From assembly GCA_016845305.1 (NCBI GenBank), contig JAERSW010000070.1:1-64000 (forward strand): a DNA stretch of 64,000 nucleotides. The letters are read 5' to 3'. The number at the start of each line of letters is the position of its first letter. Within the stretch, counting starts at the first letter, position 1. Under the pieces are notes generated by a model. It saw only the letters and a list, made by a program, of their open reading frames with translations. It was not told where the DNA came from and did not search any database. Shown here piece after piece: positions 1-28,472 of this stretch. The position numbers and the translations under genes are program-made. This DNA is from Acidimicrobiales bacterium (GTDB taxonomy: Bacteria; Actinomycetota; Acidimicrobiia; Acidimicrobiales; MedAcidi-G1).

Positions 1-836
1 AGGCCCCAGGCCGTCGCGTTGCGGGTCGTCTCGTTCCCGGCCACGCACAGCAGCACGAAGAACGACGCCAGCTCGTCCTCGGTGAGCCGCTCGCCCTCCA
101 TCTCCGCGTTGACCAGGACGCTGGTCAGGTCCTCGCCGTCGCCGCCACGGCGCAGCTCCGCGGTCTCGTGCATGATGGCCGCCAGCCCGGCCCCGGCGGC
201 GAGGAACGCGGTCAGCGGGTCGGTTCCCTCGGGCACGTACTCGGGGTCCCCCTGGCTGAGCACGATGTTCGACAGCTCGAAGACCTCGTCGCGCCGGTCG
301 GGTTCGATGCCCATCAGGTCGCAGATGATGGCCAGCGGCAGCCGGGCGGCCACGTCGACCACGAAGTCGCAGGCCCCCCCGGCGGCCGCAGCGTCGACGA
401 TGGACGTGGCCATGGCGTCGATCCCGGCATCCAGCTCGTGCATCATCCGCGGCGTGAAACCGGCCGACACCAGGCGACGCAGTCGGGCGTGCCGCGGATC
501 GTCCAGGTTGATCATCGACCCGAAGAACTCGAGGAACTCCGGCGGCAGGTCGGGGACGTTGGTGCCCCGACCCGAACAGAAGTCGGCCGGACGGCGACTC
601 GCCTCGACCACGTCGGTGTGGCGGGTCAGCGCCCAGTAGCCGGGACCCGGCGGCAGGCCCTCGATCTCCCCTTCGGCGAAGAAACGGATGGGGTCGTGTC
701 GGCGCAGCGCGGTGAACGCCTCGTACCGGTCCGCCATCGGCCGGGTCCAGAAGTCGTCCACCGACGAGAGGTCGACGTCGTCGAGCAGTGCGGGCCCGGA
801 GGTCGAGCCGGTCGAGTCGTCCATGGGGTCGCCCAT
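1..836 (-). CDS. Cytochrome P450, C-terminal part beyond the left edge
   Basis: Heme monooxygenase, cut by the window edge after about 278 residues. Visible are the C-helix stretch LDDPRHARLRRLVSAGF (about 111-127) and the I-helix oxygen-activation motif AGNETTRNA (about 266-274). The ExxR and heme-cysteine regions lie outside. The sequence style resembles the actinobacterial CYP124/125/142 group, which hydroxylate terminal carbons of sterol side chains and branched lipids; that substrate is inference. The first ATG (836) is chosen because a TACGGT box lies 8 nt upstream; ATG 824 is the alternative. Divergent from a SnoaL-like gene, next to SDR and CoA-transferase genes that fit lipid degradation. 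Confidence 0.9.
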   Translation of the reverse strand, partial: MGDPMDDSTGSTSGPALLDDVDLSSVDDFWTRPMADRYEAFTALRRHDPIRFFAEGEIEGLPPGPGYWALTRHTDVVEASRRPADFCSGRGTNVPDLPPEFLEFFGSMINLDDPRHARLRRLVSAGFTPRMMHELDAGIDAMATSIVDAAAAGGACDFVVDVAARLPLAIICDLMGIEPDRRDEVFELSNIVLSQGDPEYVPEGTDPLTAFLAAGAGLAAIMHETAELRRGGDGEDLTSVLVNAEMEGERLTEDELASFFVLLCVAGNETTRNATAWG

Positions 837-20407: not shown

Positions 20408-21850
20408 TCAGCCGATCTCGGTGCGGTGGATGACGTTCTTGACCACCAGGTAGTGCAGCAGGCCCTCGGTCCCGCCCTCGCGGCCGTAGCCACTGGACTT
20501 CACCCCGCCGAACGGCGTCTCGGGCAGCGAGGCCTCCAGGGTGTTGATGGACAGGTTCCCGGCCTCCACCCCGTCGACGAGGCGTTCGGCGTAGTCGGCC
20601 CGGTTGGTGAACCCGTAGGAGGCCAGCCCGTAGGGCACCGAATTGGCCCGGGCGATGGCCTCGTCCAGGGAGGCCACCGGGTTGACGACGGCCACGGGCC
20701 CGAACGGCTCCTCGTGCATGATCCGGGCCTCGTCGGGCACGTCGGCCAGCACCGTCGGCTCCAGGAAGTAGCCGGTGTCGCCGATCCGGTTGCCACCCGT
20801 GGTGAGGCGGCCACCCACCGCCACCGCGTCGGCCACCAGGTCGACCACGTCGGCGAGGCGGCGGTCGTTGGCCACCGGACCCATGTCGGTGCCGCCGTCG
20901 AGGCCGTTGCCGACCGCGAGCTCGGCGACGCCGCCGGTCAGCACCTCCAGGAACCGTTCGTGGACGTCGCGGTGCACGTAGAAGCGGGTGGGCGAGGTGC
21001 ACACCTGGCCGGCGTTGCGCATGGCCCGGACGGCCGAGGCGGACGCCGCGGCGTCCACGTCGGTGTCCTCGCACACGATGACCGGGGCGTGGCCGCCCAG
21101 CTCCATCATCACCGGGGTCATGTGGTCCGAGGCCAGGCCGGTGAGGTGCCGGCCCACCGACGTGGAGCCTGTGAAGGCCATCAGGCGGATGGCCTCGTCC
21201 GCGATCAGGCGCCGGGAGATCTCGTCCGGGACGCCGAAGACCAGGTTCAGCACCCCCGGGGGGAGGCCGGCGTCGTGGAAGGCCCGGGCGAGGTGCAGGG
21301 CACCGGCGGGCGTCTCCTCGGCGGCCTTGAGCACGATGGAGCAGCCCGACGCCAGCGCACCCGCCACCTTGCGGGCCGGCTGGCTGAACGGGAAGTTCCA
21401 CGGCGAGAAGGCCGCCACCGGGCCAATGGGCTGGTGGTGCACGGTGATGCGCACGCCGGGGCCGCTGGGGATGACCCGCCCGTAGGTGCGGACGGCCTCG
21501 CCGGCATCCCACTCGAAGAACTCGGCCCCGCGGACCACCTCGGCCCGGGCCTCGTCCAGCGGCTTGCCGTGCTCGAGGGTGATCGACCGGGCGATCTCCT
21601 CCTGGCGGTCCCGCATCAGGTCGGCCGCGTGGCAGATCACCTCGGCCCGCTCCGACGGCGGCGTCACCCGCCACGCCTCGAAGCCCCGCACGGCGGCCTT
21701 CACCGCGTCGTCCAGGTCGCCGGGTCCGGCCACCGGGACGCGGCCGATCACCTCCTCGGTGGCCGGGTCGACGACCGGCAGGTCGCGGTCGGCCGCCCGC
21801 CAGGCGCCGTCGACGTACAGCTGGAGGTCCGGATAGTCGGTGGTGGTCAT
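20408..21850 (-). CDS. Aldehyde dehydrogenase, succinate-semialdehyde/aminomuconate-type
   Basis: A 480-residue enzyme with cofactor region FSPWNFPFSQPARKVAGALA, glutamate in MMELGGHAPVIV, nucleophilic cysteine in MRNAGQVCTSPTRFYV and C-terminal PFGGVKSSGYGREGG. By sequence it looks like the succinate-semialdehyde dehydrogenase group. By position, 76 bases after tryptophan dioxygenase on the same strand, it could act on 2-aminomuconate semialdehyde in the tryptophan pathway. The true start is ATG 21850; the open frame further upstream is not protein-like. Confidence 0.9.
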   Translation of the reverse strand: MTTTDYPDLQLYVDGAWRAADRDLPVVDPATEEVIGRVPVAGPGDLDDAVKAAVRGFEAWRVTPPSERAEVICHAADLMRDRQEEIARSITLEHGKPLDEARAEVVRGAEFFEWDAGEAVRTYGRVIPSGPGVRITVHHQPIGPVAAFSPWNFPFSQPARKVAGALASGCSIVLKAAEETPAGALHLARAFHDAGLPPGVLNLVFGVPDEISRRLIADEAIRLMAFTGSTSVGRHLTGLASDHMTPVMMELGGHAPVIVCEDTDVDAAASASAVRAMRNAGQVCTSPTRFYVHRDVHERFLEVLTGGVAELAVGNGLDGGTDMGPVANDRRLADVVDLVADAVAVGGRLTTGGNRIGDTGYFLEPTVLADVPDEARIMHEEPFGPVAVVNPVASLDEAIARANSVPYGLASYGFTNRADYAERLVDGVEAGNLSINTLEASLPETPFGGVKSSGYGREGGTEGLLHYLVVKNVIHRTEIG

Positions 21851-21926: not shown

Positions 21927-22763
21927 TCAGAAGGCGGTCCGGATGGCCCACAGGTCGGGGAAGGACGGCTGGAAGAGGGTGGTGGCCAGGTAGGCGGCAC
22001 CGTCGGAGCCACCGGTCCCGGGCTTGGTGCCGATGGTCCGGCGGACCATCATCACGTGCCGGTACCGCCACTCCTGGAGGCCCTCGTCGAGGTCGGTGAG
22101 GGTCTCGCCGAGGCCGGCGAACCGTGGATCGGCGTACGAGGCCACGATGGCCGCCTGGACGTCCTCGTCCTCGGCGATCGGTTCGCGGACGTTGCGCTGG
22201 AGGGTGCTGTCCGGGAGGTCGAAGCCGGCCCGGGACAGCAGGTGCACGTAGGCGTCCCAGAGGGAGGGGGCCCCGTGGCGGCGCCGCAGGCGCTCCGCCT
22301 CGTCGCCGTCGAACCAGTCGAGGAGGACCCGGTCCCGGGTGCCGAGCAGGAACTCCAGCTCGCGGAACTGCGCCGACTGGAACCCGCTGGCCGCGGCCAG
22401 GAAGGAGCGGAACCCGGCGAATTCGGCCGGGGTCATGGTCTCCAGCACGTCGACCTGGCCGACCAGGGTCTTCAGCACCTTGAGGACCCTCTTGAGCCGG
22501 TGGCGGGCCGCGTCGACCTCGTCGCCGTCCAGCAGGGCGACGATGGAGTCCAGCTCGTGCAGGAGCTGCTTGAACCACAGCTCGTACACCTGGTGGATGA
22601 CGATGAACAGGGTCTCGTCGTGTTCCGGCTCGCCGGTGGTCGGGTCGACCGACCGGCAGGTCTGCAGGGACAGCAGCTCGGGCACCCGCAGGTAGGACCC
22701 GTAGGTCAGGTCCGCGTCACCCGTGGGCCGACCGGCGGACTCGTCGTGCGAAGGGGTGGTCAT
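21927..22763 (-). CDS. kynA: Tryptophan 2,3-dioxygenase
   Basis: Heme enzyme that opens the indole ring of L-tryptophan to N-formylkynurenine, the first step of the kynurenine route. The 278 residues contain the proximal and substrate-contact regions TLFIVIHQVYELWFKQLLHE and FRSFLAAASGFQSAQFRELE, and WRYRHVMMVRRTIGTKPGTGG near the end, all diagnostic of the family. ATG 22763 overlaps the stop of the monooxygenase gene upstream (ATGA). It is the fifth gene of the marR operon. Confidence 0.96.
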   Translation of the reverse strand: MTTPSHDESAGRPTGDADLTYGSYLRVPELLSLQTCRSVDPTTGEPEHDETLFIVIHQVYELWFKQLLHELDSIVALLDGDEVDAARHRLKRVLKVLKTLVGQVDVLETMTPAEFAGFRSFLAAASGFQSAQFRELEFLLGTRDRVLLDWFDGDEAERLRRRHGAPSLWDAYVHLLSRAGFDLPDSTLQRNVREPIAEDEDVQAAIVASYADPRFAGLGETLTDLDEGLQEWRYRHVMMVRRTIGTKPGTGGSDGAAYLATTLFQPSFPDLWAIRTAF

Positions 22764-24109
22764 GCGAGCGAGAGGGCGTCGGGCCGGGCCAGGGGGTCCA
22801 GCTCGGGCAGCGGGGGCAGGTCGGCCACCAGGGCATCCAGGTCGAGGGTCGGGTCGGCCACGCCCCGGCACAGGATCTCGTGCTGGGCCGCGGCGCGGTC
22901 GCGGGCCTCGGCGTAGGGCATGGTCGAGAACATGACCATGTTGTACCGGGGGCTCAGGTGGGCGGGATGGCGCCGTTCCAGGTCGAGGGCCAGCCCGCGA
23001 CGGGCCACGTGGTCGGCGTCGACCACCCCGGCCCGCATCTCCACGTAGTTGTCCAGCGCCATGTCCGCGATGGCCTCGGCGTCCGGCTTGCGCTCGGCCT
23101 CGTAGGCGGCGAAGGCGGTCGCCGGGTCGTCGGGGTGGTCCCGGAGGTTCCGGTCGAGGGCCCGGACGGACTCCATGGCCAGGTTCATGCCCTGGCCGTG
23201 GAAGGGCACGATGGCGTGGGCGGCATCGCCCACGAGCGCCACCCGGCCCTCGTGGCTCCAGCCGGTGGCCCGCATGGTGGCCAACGACCCGGTGGGGTTG
23301 GCCAGGAACTGGTCGGCCACGTCGGGGACCAGCGCCGCGAAGTCGGCGAACTCGGCGGCGAAGAAGCGACGGACGTTGGCGACGTCGGCCAACCCGTCGA
23401 AGGTGGCCCAGGGCGCGAAGAGGGTGGCGGTGAAGTCGCCCCCCGGGTTGGCCAGGGCGATCAGCATGAACCCGCCCCGGGGCCAGACGTGCAGGGCGTT
23501 CGGGTCGAGCCGATGGCCGCCGCCCGCGGCCGGAGGCACCGTCAGCTCCTTGTAGCCGTGGTCGAGGCGATCGGTGATGGCCCGACAGGTCCCGTGGTCG
23601 ACCAGGGCGGCCCGCACCCTCGACCCGGCGCCGTCGGCCCCGAACAGCGTCCCGAACGGGGCGGTGCGGCCATCGGCGAAGGAGAGCTCCGACCGGTCGA
23701 GGTCCACCCCCTTCAACTCGGCCGAGAACTCGACCCGGACCCGCCCGGTGGCCTCTGCGGCGTCCAGCAGGAGGCCGTTCAGGTCGGCCCGGGAGATGGA
23801 GTGGATGACCTCGTGGGGCCGGCTGCCGTAGGGCTGCAGGGTCGGTTCGCTCCCATCGGCGGCGTGCACCATCCGGCCCCGCATGGGGATGGTGATGGCG
23901 TCGACGCGGTCGATGAGGCCCACGTCGACCAGCGGCACGATGCCCCGGGTGGCCAGGGCCAGGTTGATGGACCGACCGGCCACCACCTCGGTGGTCCGCA
24001 GGTCGGGCCGACCCTCGTAGAGGACGACCTCGTGGCCCCGGCGGGCCAGGAAGACCGAGAGCAGCGTCCCGGCCTGGCCGGCGCCCACGATGGCGATCGG
24101 GCCCTTCAC
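22760..24109 (-). CDS. kmo: Kynurenine 3-monooxygenase
   Basis: FAD- and NADPH-dependent hydroxylase converting kynurenine to 3-hydroxykynurenine. It has the dinucleotide motif IAIVGAGQAGTLLSVFLARRGHEV, split here into VGAGQAG and the following helix. KMO-specific GRSINLALATRG and the second FAD motif VALVGDAAHAIVPFHGQGMN are also present. GTG 24109 (MKGPIAIVG) is preferred because GAGGG lies about 8 nt before it and it gives a compact N-terminus; GTG 24133 would add eight residues. About 449 residues. It lies between kynureninase and tryptophan dioxygenase in the operon. Confidence 0.94.
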   Translation of the reverse strand: MKGPIAIVGAGQAGTLLSVFLARRGHEVVLYEGRPDLRTTEVVAGRSINLALATRGIVPLVDVGLIDRVDAITIPMRGRMVHAADGSEPTLQPYGSRPHEVIHSISRADLNGLLLDAAEATGRVRVEFSAELKGVDLDRSELSFADGRTAPFGTLFGADGAGSRVRAALVDHGTCRAITDRLDHGYKELTVPPAAGGGHRLDPNALHVWPRGGFMLIALANPGGDFTATLFAPWATFDGLADVANVRRFFAAEFADFAALVPDVADQFLANPTGSLATMRATGWSHEGRVALVGDAAHAIVPFHGQGMNLAMESVRALDRNLRDHPDDPATAFAAYEAERKPDAEAIADMALDNYVEMRAGVVDADHVARRGLALDLERRHPAHLSPRYNMVMFSTMPYAEARDRAAAQHEILCRGVADPTLDLDALVADLPPLPELDPLARPDALSLA

Positions 24110-24137
24110 CGGCTCACCCTCGGCTCCGGGCACGCCC

Positions 24138-25409
24138 TCATCGGGTCACCATGTCGAGCACCTCGACGAGGCGATCGAGGTCGGCGAAGGAGTTGTAGAG
24201 CGGCACCGGAGCGGCCCGGATGGCGTCGGGCTCGCGCCAGTCGCACCACACCCGCGCCTCCTGCAGGGCCTCGAAGACCCGCCGACCATCACCGGCCACG
24301 ATCCGCAGGGCCGACTGGCAGCCCCGCTCGGCCAGCACCGTCGGGGCCAGGTTCTCCACCCGGCCGGCCAGCACCTCGTCGAGGCGTCGGTCCAGGTGGT
24401 CGATCATCAGCTCGGCCTTGCGGCGCAGCGGGCCCATGCCGCCGGCCCGTCCGAAGACGTCCAGGGAGGCCCGCAGGGCGGCCATGGGCAGGATCGGCGC
24501 GTTGGACAGCTGCCACGACTCGGCCGTGGGGATGGCGTCGAAGGTGGTGGCCATGGCGAACCGGGTGGTCGGGTCGGTGCCCCACCAGCCATGCAGCTTG
24601 GGCAGGTCCGGATCGGCCACGTGGTCCCGGTGGACGTAGGCCGCGCCCACCCCGCCCGGCCCGCCGTTCAGGTACTTGTACGAGCACCACACGGCGAAGT
24701 CGACCCCCCAGTCGTGGAGGGCCAGCTCGACGTTGCCCACCGCGTGGGCCAGGTCGAGGCCGACGACCGCCCCCGCCTCGTGGCCCGCCGCGGCGATCTC
24801 GGCCATGGGGAGCACCTGGCCGGTGTAGTACTGCACGCCGGGCAGCAGCACGAGCGCCAGCTCGTCGCCGAGCTCGGCGATGGCGGCCAGCACGTCCTCG
24901 CGACGCAGCAGCTCCTCACCGTCCCGGGGGGCCACGGTGACCAGCGAGGCGGCCGGGTCGTACCCCCGCTGACGGATCTGGGACTCGACGGCGAAGTGGT
25001 CCGACGGGAAGGCACGGTCCTCGATCAGCACCTTGTGGCGCCGGGGCGTGGGCCGGTAGAAGCTGACCAGCAGCAGGTGGAGGTTGACGGTCAGCGCGTT
25101 CATGGCCACCACCTCGTCGGGGTGGGCCCCGACGAGGTCGGCCAGGGGGCCGGACAGCAGCTCGTGGTAGCCCTTCCAGCCCAGCGGTCCGTCGAAGTGG
25201 GCCTCGCCGCCGAGGGTGGCCCACCGGTCCATCTCGTGGGCGACGTGGGCGCGAGCCGCCCGGGGCAGGGCGCCGAGGGAGTTGCCGACCAGGTAGGTGC
25301 CTTCGGGAAGCTCGAACTCGTCGCGGAAGCCGGCCAGGGGGTCGGCCGCGTCCAGCTCCGCGGCCGTCATCGTCGCAGAGGCCGGTCCGGCCTCGGCGGT
25401 CCGGCTCAC
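24138..25409 (-). CDS. kynU: Kynureninase
   Basis: PLP enzyme cleaving 3-hydroxykynurenine (or kynurenine) to 3-hydroxyanthranilate (or anthranilate) and alanine. The 423 residues contain EGTYLVGNSLGALPRA near the N-terminus, the PLP aspartate in VVGLDLAHAVGNVE and the Schiff-base lysine in WCSYKYLNGGPGGVGA. GTG 25409 overlaps the TGA of the dioxygenase gene (GTGA); ATG 25370 is a possible internal start. With the monooxygenase directly downstream, 3-hydroxykynurenine is the likely substrate. Confidence 0.95.
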   Translation of the reverse strand: MSRTAEAGPASATMTAAELDAADPLAGFRDEFELPEGTYLVGNSLGALPRAARAHVAHEMDRWATLGGEAHFDGPLGWKGYHELLSGPLADLVGAHPDEVVAMNALTVNLHLLLVSFYRPTPRRHKVLIEDRAFPSDHFAVESQIRQRGYDPAASLVTVAPRDGEELLRREDVLAAIAELGDELALVLLPGVQYYTGQVLPMAEIAAAGHEAGAVVGLDLAHAVGNVELALHDWGVDFAVWCSYKYLNGGPGGVGAAYVHRDHVADPDLPKLHGWWGTDPTTRFAMATTFDAIPTAESWQLSNAPILPMAALRASLDVFGRAGGMGPLRRKAELMIDHLDRRLDEVLAGRVENLAPTVLAERGCQSALRIVAGDGRRVFEALQEARVWCDWREPDAIRAAPVPLYNSFADLDRLVEVLDMVTR

Positions 25410-25975
25410 AGGCGCGCCCCGGTGCCGGGGTGCACGGCCCCGCAGTTCGGACAGGTCCGGGCGTCGACGTCGGCGTCGAAGGCGGCGAACAGGGGCGGGA
25501 GGTCGCGGTCGATGGCCTGGACCTGGATCTCCACCCGATGGACGAGGTGCGCACACTCGAAGCACGCCCACTCGAAGCCGTCGACCTCGCCGAGGGGTCG
25601 CTGGTACTCCACGACCAGGCCGACCGAATCCGGGTCGGGGCGCTGGGGCGAGTGCCGGACGCCGGCCGGCAGCAGGTAGACCTCGCCCTCCCGGATGGGC
25701 ATGTGGAACGGCTCCTCGCCCGACCCGGGCCAGATGACCAGGTCCATGTCGCCCCGGATCTGGTGGAAGAACTCCTCCCGAGGGTCGTCGTGGAAGTCGT
25801 TCCGCTGGTTCCCGCCGCCCACCACCATCACGATCATGTCGGCCTGCCGGAAGACCTGCTTGTTGGCCACGGGAGGGACCAGCTCGTGGCGGTGGGCGTC
25901 GATCCAGGCGTCCAGGCGGAAGGGTCGGCGGTCCCGCGGGTCCGGATCCCAGTCGGTGGGGACGCGTTCGTTCAT
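25406..25975 (-). CDS. nbaC: 3-hydroxyanthranilate 3,4-dioxygenase
   Basis: Cupin dioxygenase opening 3-hydroxyanthranilate to aminocarboxymuconate semialdehyde, which closes spontaneously to quinolinate. The 189 residues have the iron-ligand segments NDFHDDPREEFFHQIRGDM and LLPAGVRHSPQRPD. The C-terminal rubredoxin-like metal site (CFEC, then CPNC) is typical of bacterial enzymes. ATG 25975 overlaps the marR stop (ATGA). Its product can feed NAD synthesis or be degraded further. Confidence 0.95.
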   Translation of the reverse strand: MNERVPTDWDPDPRDRRPFRLDAWIDAHRHELVPPVANKQVFRQADMIVMVVGGGNQRNDFHDDPREEFFHQIRGDMDLVIWPGSGEEPFHMPIREGEVYLLPAGVRHSPQRPDPDSVGLVVEYQRPLGEVDGFEWACFECAHLVHRVEIQVQAIDRDLPPLFAAFDADVDARTCPNCGAVHPGTGARL

Positions 25976-26445
25976 GCCGGCTCCCCCACCAGGCGGGCAT
26001 CCAGCGCGTCCGTGAGCTCCCGGAGTCGCCCGACCAGCTCGTCGAGTCCTCCTTCGTCGAGTGCGAAGGCACCGGCCAGCGCCTCGGCCTCCAGGCGGGT
26101 GGCCTCGGACACCAGCGTGGCCGTCAGGGCGGCGCCGTCCGACGTGAGCGCGACCAGACGCTCGCGGCGGTCGGCGCCGACGGTCCGGGTGACGAGGCCA
26201 CGGTCCTCGAGGCGTCGCAGGGCGTGGGTGACGGTGGGCTGGGGGCTCAGCGCGGCTTCGGCGAGGTCGGCCACCCGCATCTCGCCCGACTCGGCCAGCA
26301 CGGCGATCACCCGCCACTCGGAGCGGGCCACGCCGGTGCGGTTCAGCACGTCGTAGAAGGGCGCCGACAGGGTCTGGTCGGCGCGGCGGAGCAGGTACGG
26401 GAGGTAGCCGTCCAGGAAGCCGGACCGTTCGGAGGCCGTCGCCAT
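25972..26445 (-). CDS. MarR-family regulator, first gene of the kynurenine operon
   Basis: A 157-residue winged-helix repressor: VARSEWRVIAVLAESGEMRVADLA leads into the recognition helix PQPTVTHALRRLEDRGLV and the wing GADRRERLVALTSDG. ATG 26445 is chosen because a strong promoter (TTGACA, 17 bp, TAATGT) ends 7 nt before it, implying a leaderless mRNA. Position at the head of hao-kynU-kmo-kynA and a 26-bp dyad across its own promoter suggest it controls tryptophan breakdown in response to kynurenine or a related metabolite; that ligand is inference. Confidence 0.93.
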   Translation of the reverse strand: MATASERSGFLDGYLPYLLRRADQTLSAPFYDVLNRTGVARSEWRVIAVLAESGEMRVADLAEAALSPQPTVTHALRRLEDRGLVTRTVGADRRERLVALTSDGAALTATLVSEATRLEAEALAGAFALDEGGLDELVGRLRELTDALDARLVGEPA

Positions 26446-26449
26446 GCGC

Positions 26450-26478
26450 TCGACATTAGATTCAGACGAATGTATTGT
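26450..26478 (+). promoter_or_regulatory. Promoter of kynurenine formamidase
   Basis: TCGACA (26450-26455), 17-bp spacer, TATTGT (26473-26478), then 8 nt to GTG 26487. This implies a leaderless or nearly leaderless transcript. It overlaps the opposite-strand marR promoter almost base for base. Confidence 0.6.
26453..26478. promoter_or_regulatory. 26-bp dyad, putative MarR operator
   Basis: ACATTAGATTC AGAC GAATGTATTGT has 9 of 11 symmetric positions in each arm around a 4-bp centre. The two outer arms coincide with the -10 boxes of the two divergent promoters, so one bound dimer would block both directions. Confidence 0.6.
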
Positions 26479-26481
26479 CAA
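26453..26481 (-). promoter_or_regulatory. Promoter of the marR-kynurenine operon
   Basis: On the minus strand: perfect TTGACA (26476-26481), 17-bp spacer, TAATGT (26453-26458), then 7 nt to ATG 26445. It is the best sigma-70-type promoter in the window and predicts a leaderless mRNA. Confidence 0.75.
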
Positions 26482-26486
26482 TCGGC

Positions 26487-27434
26487 GTGGGGCCCGAGGA
26501 GCAGCAACCGCGGTGGCGTTCGATGGACGATGGGGAGCGGGAACGCCAGTACTCCCCCAGCTCCCGCCTACCCGACGGCGACTACCGGCCCTTCGTGGAG
26601 GCCTACCGGACCCGCAGCGCCGAGGCCTTCCAACGGGCCGTGTCCGATGGCGCCACCGTCACCGTGCTCCGGCCCGGCCCTGACCTGAATGGCGACGACC
26701 TGCCCGCCGTCCACCTGGTCCACCCCGGCGACGCCGACGGGCCGACACCGGTGCTGGCCTTCGTCCACGGCGGCTACTGGCAGGAACTGTCGGCCGCCGA
26801 GTCCCTGTTCCCGGCGACGGCCTGCCTGGCCCGCGGCTGGGCCTACGCGGCCGTCGACCACACGCTGGCCCCCCACGCCGACCTCGACGACATCGTCGAC
26901 GAGTGCCGCCGCGCGGTGGCCGTCCTCGTCGAACGGGCGCCGGACCTCGGGCTCGACGCCGATCGGATCGTCCTGGCCGGCCACTCGGCCGGGGCGCACC
27001 TGGCGGCCAGCACCGCCCTCGGGTTCGCCGACGACCGCACCGGGACGGCGCGGCGCCTCGCCGGGCTGGCCCTCGTCTCGGGGATCTACGAGCTCGAGCC
27101 GCTGATCGGCACCACGGTCGACGACCGCCTCGGCCTCGACGTCACCACCGCCCGCCGCAACAGCCCGCTCCTGGCCGAGGCCGCACAGGCGGACGGAGGT
27201 GGCCTCCCCCCGACGCTCGTCGTCCACGCCGCGGACGACACCGACGAGTTCCGGGCCCAGTCGGCGGCCTACGCCGACCACCTGGCGGCGGCGGGAACGG
27301 CCGTCACCACGCTGGAGGTCGCCGAACGGCACCACTTCGACGTGGTCCTGGACCTCGCCGAAGCGGGAACGCTGCTGGGTGATGCGGTCGACCGCCTGGT
27401 GCGGTCGACCGGGCGGGGCGAAGGACGCCCCTGA
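26487..27434 (+). CDS. Kynurenine formamidase (alpha/beta-hydrolase type)
   Basis: Hydrolyses N-formylkynurenine to kynurenine. The 315-residue alpha/beta hydrolase carries the family signature LAFVHGGYWQELSA (HGGYW oxyanion motif), nucleophile GHSAGAHLAAS, and a C-terminal histidine in AERHHFDVV. The early segment RQYSPSSRLPD is also usual for this family. GTG 26487 is favoured by the promoter position; ATG 26523 (MDDGERERQYSP) is the alternative. Divergent from the operon holding the other four enzymes, it completes the path from tryptophan to 3-hydroxyanthranilate and beyond. Confidence 0.9.
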   Translation: MGPEEQQPRWRSMDDGERERQYSPSSRLPDGDYRPFVEAYRTRSAEAFQRAVSDGATVTVLRPGPDLNGDDLPAVHLVHPGDADGPTPVLAFVHGGYWQELSAAESLFPATACLARGWAYAAVDHTLAPHADLDDIVDECRRAVAVLVERAPDLGLDADRIVLAGHSAGAHLAASTALGFADDRTGTARRLAGLALVSGIYELEPLIGTTVDDRLGLDVTTARRNSPLLAEAAQADGGGLPPTLVVHAADDTDEFRAQSAAYADHLAAAGTAVTTLEVAERHHFDVVLDLAEAGTLLGDAVDRLVRSTGRGEGRP

Positions 27435-27440
27435 GGGCCG

Positions 27441-28472
27441 TCAGCCCTGGCCGCCCGAGGCCTCCTGGACCGACACCTTGCCGGCGCTGATCCACGGCAT
27501 CATCGACCGCAGCTCCGTCCCGACCTTCTCGATGCGGTGCTCGTGGCCCTCGGCCTCCAGGCGACGGAAGTTCTCCCGTCCCCCGTGGGCCTCGGCCACC
27601 CACTCCTCGGCGAACTTGCCGGTCTGGATCTCGGCGAGGATCTGCTTCATGGTGGCCCGCACGTGGTCGTCGACCACCCGGGGACCACGGGACAGGTCGC
27701 CGTACTCGGCGGTGTCCGACACCGAGTAGCGCATGCCGCCGATGCCCTGCTCGTACATGAGGTCCACGATCAGCTTCAGCTCGTGGAGGCACTCGAAGTA
27801 GGCGATCTCCGGCTGGTAGCCGGCGTCGACCAGCGTGTCGAAGCCGCTGCGGACCAGCTCGGTCATGCCGCCGCACAGCACCACCTGCTCGCCGAACAGG
27901 TCGGTCTCGCACTCCTCGGTGAAGGTGGTCTCGATCACGCCGGCCCGGGCACCGCCCACGCCGTCCGCGTAGGCCAGGGCCAGGTCCTTGGCGCCGCCGG
28001 TGGCGTCCTGCTCGATGGCGATCAGGCACGGCACGCCGCCGCCCTCGGCGTAGGTGCGGCGCACCAGGTGGCCGGGACCCTTGGGGGCGATCATGATCAC
28101 GTCGACGTCGGCCGGCGGGGCGATCAGGTCGAAGCGGATGTTGAAGCCGTGGGCGAAGGCCAGGGCGTCGCCGGCCTGGAGGTTCGGGGCCACGTGCTCC
28201 TCGTACACCGACGCCTGGTCGGTGTCGGGCAGCAGGATCATGATGACGTCGGCCCACGCCGAGGCATCGCACAGCGACCGCACCACGAGGCCGGCCTCGG
28301 TGGCCTTGGCCGCCGACGACGAGCCGTCGCGCAGGCCGACGCACACGTCGACGCCCGACTCCTTGAGGTTCAGCGCGTGGGCGTGGCCCTGGGAGCCGTA
28401 GCCCAGGATGGCCACCTTGCGCGAGGCGATCGCGCTGCGGTCGACGTCCTTCTCGTAGTAGATGTTCGCCAT
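27441..28472 (-). CDS. ilvC: Ketol-acid reductoisomerase
   Basis: Second enzyme of valine/isoleucine synthesis: isomerises and reduces acetolactate with NADPH and Mg2+. The 343-residue class I enzyme has [21 protein letters not shown] (cofactor site, given in parts: [17 protein letters not shown]), the metal-binding [16 protein letters not shown] and [19 protein letters not shown] 28472 has AGGAGAG upstream. It is the last gene of ilvB-ilvN-ilvC, with an 85-bp gap after ilvN that holds only short CGGCCGGT-like repeats. Confidence 0.97.

Follow-up and report, generated by a model that had tools for sequence, protein, structure and literature searches.

The palindromic bio operator of E. coli, the site of BirA, covers two overlapping divergent promoters, as does the element described here; BirA is not a MarR protein, and its transcripts have leaders, unlike those predicted at the present locus. 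The HucR/uricase system of Deinococcus radiodurans places a MarR gene divergently from a catabolic gene with a single operator between the two, and the ligand is expected to release both directions (PMC5487221). Genes of the kynurenine pathway in Pseudomonas and Burkholderia are controlled by KynR, for which L-kynurenine is a listed effector (PMC4349456). The MarR protein MarR_73 of the Variovorax iad auxin locus controls the breakdown of a tryptophan-derived aromatic compound; it has been solved with indole-3-acetate, salicylate and benzoate (PDB 7KFO), and residues Tyr15, Ser28, His32, Trp45 and Arg46 hold the indole ring and carboxylate (PMC9613470). Bidirectional promoters combine pseudo-symmetric DNA, divergent transcription and sterically exclusive polymerases; a single -10 element serves their two directions, and the divergent starts are separated by 7-25 bp (PMC12825309, PMC10268837).

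The locus considered here lies in a 64,000-nucleotide stretch of DNA from an Acidimicrobiales bacterium, referred to as the window, and carries the divergent genes marR and kynB. By analogy, its layout can be regarded as a compact version of the HucR/uricase plan, and the genome of this organism contains one predicted operator site, between marR and kynB, as in a HucR-type divergent switch. In contrast to HucR, marR here heads a multi-gene catabolic operon, the operator dyad is also the dyad of the promoter pair, both transcripts are predicted to be leaderless, and another class of ligand is expected. Whereas KynR is an Lrp/AsnC protein, the regulator here belongs to the MarR family and would be a non-homologous solution of the same task; no MarR regulator of the kynurenine pathway was found in the literature searched. 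The bidirectional promoters differ in that the two directions here have separate -10 boxes, with predicted (unmapped) starts 39-42 bp apart. Judged from sequence, what sets the locus apart is the use of one dyad for the operator and both promoters, the two predicted leaderless messages and a MarR protein instead of KynR; such an arrangement is not surprising in principle.

We assign a probability of roughly 0.8 to the reading that the 41 bp between the two start codons act as one two-fold symmetric element, at which a MarR dimer would repress two mirror-image promoters until released by an aromatic intermediate, both mRNAs being leaderless. A dimer of the MarR-family repressor would occupy TANATTCNNNNGAATNTA, in the spacer common to both promoters, and block RNA polymerase both leftward, into marR-hao-kynU-kmo-tdo-aldh, and rightward, into kynB. 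Release of the dimer is probably brought about by binding of an aromatic intermediate of the pathway, such as kynurenine, anthranilate or a hydroxylated relative of these, and enzymes and repressor would thereby be induced together. Transcription is predicted to begin on the start codon or no more than about 2 nt from it (26446/26445 leftward, 26485-26487 rightward), and mRNAs starting there would leave no room for regulation through a 5' leader. The geometry, the operon order, the conservation of operator and start-codon spacing, and the uniqueness of the site in the genome are read from sequence; binding, repression, the ligand, the actual starts and the effect of polymerase competition are inferred. 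For an actinobacterial order whose members are mostly uncultured, the proposal predicts which regulator, operator and regulon govern kynurenine degradation. The locus is also a natural test case of how a second promoter can arise from a palindromic operator, since a single tree holds relatives that have or lack the divergent gene and that have or lack a leader. Being short and well defined, the 32 bp common to both promoters would lend themselves to measurements of polymerase competition and two-way repression.

Pathway genes and the regulator protein

The marR gene (25972..26445, minus strand) heads the kyn operon and is predicted to be leaderless. Its product belongs to the MarR family by PF12802 (46.8 bits, cut-off 27) and PF01047 (42.6 bits, cut-off 24.6), and its AlphaFold2 model (pLDDT 89) matches MarR structures in the PDB; the model confirmed the fold only and does not decide the mechanism. 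The protein is not of the KynR type, as profile searches returned MarR and generic wHTH families and no AsnC family, and it scores 60.9 bits against the HpaR equivalog TIGR02337, for which the cut-off is 121.2.

Five further genes follow on the minus strand. The hao gene (25406..25975) encodes 3-hydroxyanthranilate 3,4-dioxygenase (NF009763/TIGR03037, above cut-off) and shares an ATGA overlap with marR, and kynU (24138..25409) encodes kynureninase (TIGR01814, 387 bits) and has a GTGA overlap with hao. The product of kmo (22760..24133) is probably kynurenine 3-monooxygenase by PF01494 and operon context, with no equivalog match above cut-off in the profile search. Next are tdo (21927..22763), which encodes tryptophan 2,3-dioxygenase (PF03301, 222 bits) and overlaps kmo by ATGA, and aldh (20408..21850), an open reading frame in the same operon for a putative aldehyde dehydrogenase, probably aminomuconate-semialdehyde dehydrogenase. 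An aldh orthologue comes after hao in two related loci (L012 and L042). Given this gene order and the start/stop overlaps at several junctions, the leftward promoter is taken to drive the whole pathway operon, beyond marR. On the plus strand, kynB (26487..27434, GTG start, predicted leaderless) encodes an alpha/beta-hydrolase (PF07859), a probable kynurenine formamidase by its match to PDB 4e11 (3e-17), which we take to be the Drosophila kynurenine formamidase. The predicted product of kynB would provide the step missing from the leftward operon.

The closest solved relatives of the MarR protein are SPO1453 and Variovorax MarR_73, both aromatic-acid binders, and the likeness to MarR_73 extends over sequence, fold and most of the aromatic-carboxylate pocket. 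The pocket residues align with Y14, S27, Y31, W44 and R45, none of which varies among 28 orthologs; four of the five are identical, and His32 of MarR_73 is replaced by Tyr31. This nearly shared pocket supports, by similarity only, a kynurenine- or anthranilate-like ligand. The ligand of MarR_73 itself is indole-3-acetate, and the comparison with it covered the protein.

The control region and its predicted operator

The control region between the start codons comprises 41 bp (26446-26486) and contains two sigma70-type promoters within the identical 32 bp, 26450-26481. On the minus strand, a -35 element TTGACA (26476..26481, 6/6 consensus match) and a -10 element TAATGT (26453..26458, with TANNNT at this place in orthologs) are separated by 17 bp and end 7 nt before the marR ATG at 26445. 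On the plus strand, TCGACA (26450..26455, 5/6 match) and TATTGT (26473..26478) are likewise 17 bp apart and end 8 nt before the kynB GTG at 26487. A first-pass annotation of this DNA had described both promoters, their complete overlap and the 41-bp region in these terms, and its reading is exact base for base. The -10 boxes are not strong, TAATGT and TATTGT having three and four of six matches. Reflection about the dyad centre at 26465.5, a direct reading of the sequence, maps -35 onto -35 and -10 onto -10, each in exact register, and the -35 of each promoter overlaps the -10 of the opposite one. Within the paired promoters 11 of 16 base pairs are symmetric, and an extended imperfect dyad of 28 bp (26452..26479, 10/14 pairs) takes in most of both. 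Neither reading of the sequence nor a local promoter scan revealed promoter candidates in the 41 bp other than the mirrored pair. In the -35 element TTGACA, the positions T, T and G are kept in 28, 28 and 30, respectively, of 34 distinct orthologous loci. The earlier claim that polymerases on the two promoters exclude each other is sterically expected; it was overstated, because published overlapping bidirectional promoters in E. coli compete only when transcription is substantially activated (PMC12825309), and the relevance of exclusion here would depend on promoter strength.

Statistics for promoters and leaderless starts are based on 221 kb of genome stretches (the window and L058-L065; G+C 73%), together with whole-genome pattern searches. 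A scan of both strands for promoters with at least 9/12 matches and spacers of 16-18 bp returned only three sites in the 221 kb; two of the three are the marR/kynB promoters, which form the sole antiparallel pair of such quality. The number of antiparallel pairs expected from the local promoter scan was 0, and first-order Markov sequence totalling 1.77 Mb (8 x 221 kb) contained none with an overlap of at least 20 bp. When the 41 bp were shuffled, a 10/14 dyad arose in 0.6% of trials (p ~0.006). By itself the dyad would be modest evidence, and it takes its significance from conservation in relatives.

Orthologs of marR were gathered from Acidimicrobiia genomes, and removal of duplicates left 34 distinct upstream regions. 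All 34 contain ATT(C/G/T)-N4-GAAT, with ATT and TGAAT invariant, and in 33 of them a TA is located downstream. The site coincides with the promoter spacer, between -35 and -10, in 32 loci and lies slightly upstream in two (L034, L046). In the window the putative core operator is the 18-bp TAGATTCAGACGAATGTA (TANATTCNNNNGAATNTA), at 26457..26474. When a 15-base pattern, ATTCNNNTGAATNTA, was searched in 18 whole genomes, every match was found at marR, no more than about 60 bp away; there were no matches in the four of these genomes that lack marR, and the reversed control pattern had none in all 18. The operator motif was not found at four marR paralogs (36-48% identity), and the recognition-helix segment LSPQPTVTH is nearly invariant among the orthologs. 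On this comparative evidence the predicted repressor site is well founded, which supports two suggestions of the first-pass annotation, namely a MarR operator at the promoter and a single operator lying over both promoters. The 26-bp dyad it had drawn with the -10 boxes as arms does not hold as such: the inner 18 bp are conserved, and the outer arms are promoter sequence, mostly asymmetric in relatives. A dyad of 26-28 bp was rejected as the conserved operator, since its outer columns are not kept as symmetric sequence in relatives.

A tandem operator occurs in 11 of the 34 loci (L011, L012, L013, L021, L031, L033, L036, L040, L041, L044 and L045), where another ATT(C/G)-N4-GAAT site precedes the first by 21-24 bp and so comes directly before the -35 element; the window is without it.

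Predicted leaderless starts and the probable origin of the kynB promoter

The signature of TA-led leaderless genes in actinobacteria is a TANNNT that precedes the start codon by about 12 bp (PMC3160421), and its first T lies 13 nt upstream of the start in marR and 14 nt in kynB. All 34 distinct marR orthologs have TANNNT 4-9 nt before an in-frame ATG or GTG, as against none of the four paralogs. A histogram of TANNNT-to-start gaps, compiled over the 221 kb with approximately 125 predicted genes (the gene filter did not list marR), peaks at 6-9 nt, with 23 hits in these four positions and 24 in the other 36. The histogram replaced a search of the genome with the consensus TTGAC-18-TANNNT-5..9-RTG, which gave four matches against 0 in controls and was too small a sample. 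The conservation in orthologs and the commonness of this spacing in the genome uphold the earlier prediction of a leaderless marR. More generally, the lineage seems to make frequent use of leaderless initiation, with TANNNT 6-9 nt before 23 candidate starts among the approximately 125 genes.

The corresponding claim for kynB stands in so far as the promoter and start register are common to the sister species; it is not a conserved design, as other congeners differ. In the sister species (L002/L022), TCGACA and TATTGT are identical and followed by the same 8 nt to the start codon, which is ATG in that species, and a phylogenetic tree groups the window species with it. Only these two combine a mirrored promoter of 9/12 with a kynB start 8 nt behind. 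Most other congeners have a poor mirrored promoter, of 5-7/12, and a distance of 32-64 nt from its -10 to the kynB start; some of those with a distant start have an SD-like sequence, and none precedes the GTG at 26487 in the window. Among the genomes seen, kynB adjoins marR only in the genus of the window; the tree label "divergent kynB" for L007 is unproven, as its contig ends 65 nt upstream. This restricted occurrence of the 9/12 promoter and the 8-nt register points to an ancestral marR half and a derived kynB half. We lean, with some reservation, towards a history in which loss of the kynB leader beside an ancestral one-directional MarR operator, in one lineage, turned the palindrome into a second promoter, giving a C2-symmetric element with one dyad for the operator and two complete overlapping promoters, both transcripts leaderless.

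Two loci outside this pair, L003 and L036, have near-symmetric arms and a mirrored promoter of 8/12 although no divergent gene lies in register, so operator symmetry may in part account for the rightward promoter. Taken further, the leftward promoter alone would be real, and kynB would be read from elsewhere, from inside marR, which would give a longer transcript. The ancestral operator, which occurs without kynB as a neighbour, and the poor mirrored promoters of several congeners with a divergent kynB are in keeping with that explanation. We consider it unlikely, as a mirrored promoter of 9/12 is confined to the pair of species with a kynB start 8 nt after the -10, leaderless spacing is common in the genome, and a GTG lacking an SD-like sequence stands behind 41 bp that hold no other promoter candidate. 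Separately, the L003 marR promoter carries a nearly perfect 30-bp palindrome, TGACATTAGATTCTTATGAATCTAATGTCA, and again lacks an in-register divergent gene.

A second alternative places the kynB start at the internal ATG 26523, omitting the N-terminal peptide GPEEQQPRWRSM; kynB would then have a leader of 36-40 nt, and only marR would be leaderless. An in-frame ATG does occupy the same place in the window and its relatives, and in both the window and the sister species it is preceded, at 6 nt, by GGTGG. However, a conserved W-x-S-M stretch precedes this Met in all relatives, each of which has an earlier ATG or GTG, which argues for a kynB start at GTG 26487 or at TTG 26475 (inside the -10), and the ATG of the sister species lies exactly 8 nt after the identical -10. 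The internal start is accordingly a shade more doubtful still than a by-product promoter. Although some MarR proteins activate (PMC9613470), it is highly improbable that MarR is an activator here or that another regulator uses the site, given its repressing position between -35 and -10 in nearly all loci and its occurrence only together with this marR.

The mirrored promoter pair under a single MarR operator therefore remains the preferred reading. In this family ilvC abuts the kyn locus; in the window (27441-28472) it lies on the far side of kynB and is convergent with it. In L004/L023 and L006/L019, ilvC lies directly upstream of marR and kynB is absent there, a neighbourhood that suggests gain or loss of kynB at the marR junction.
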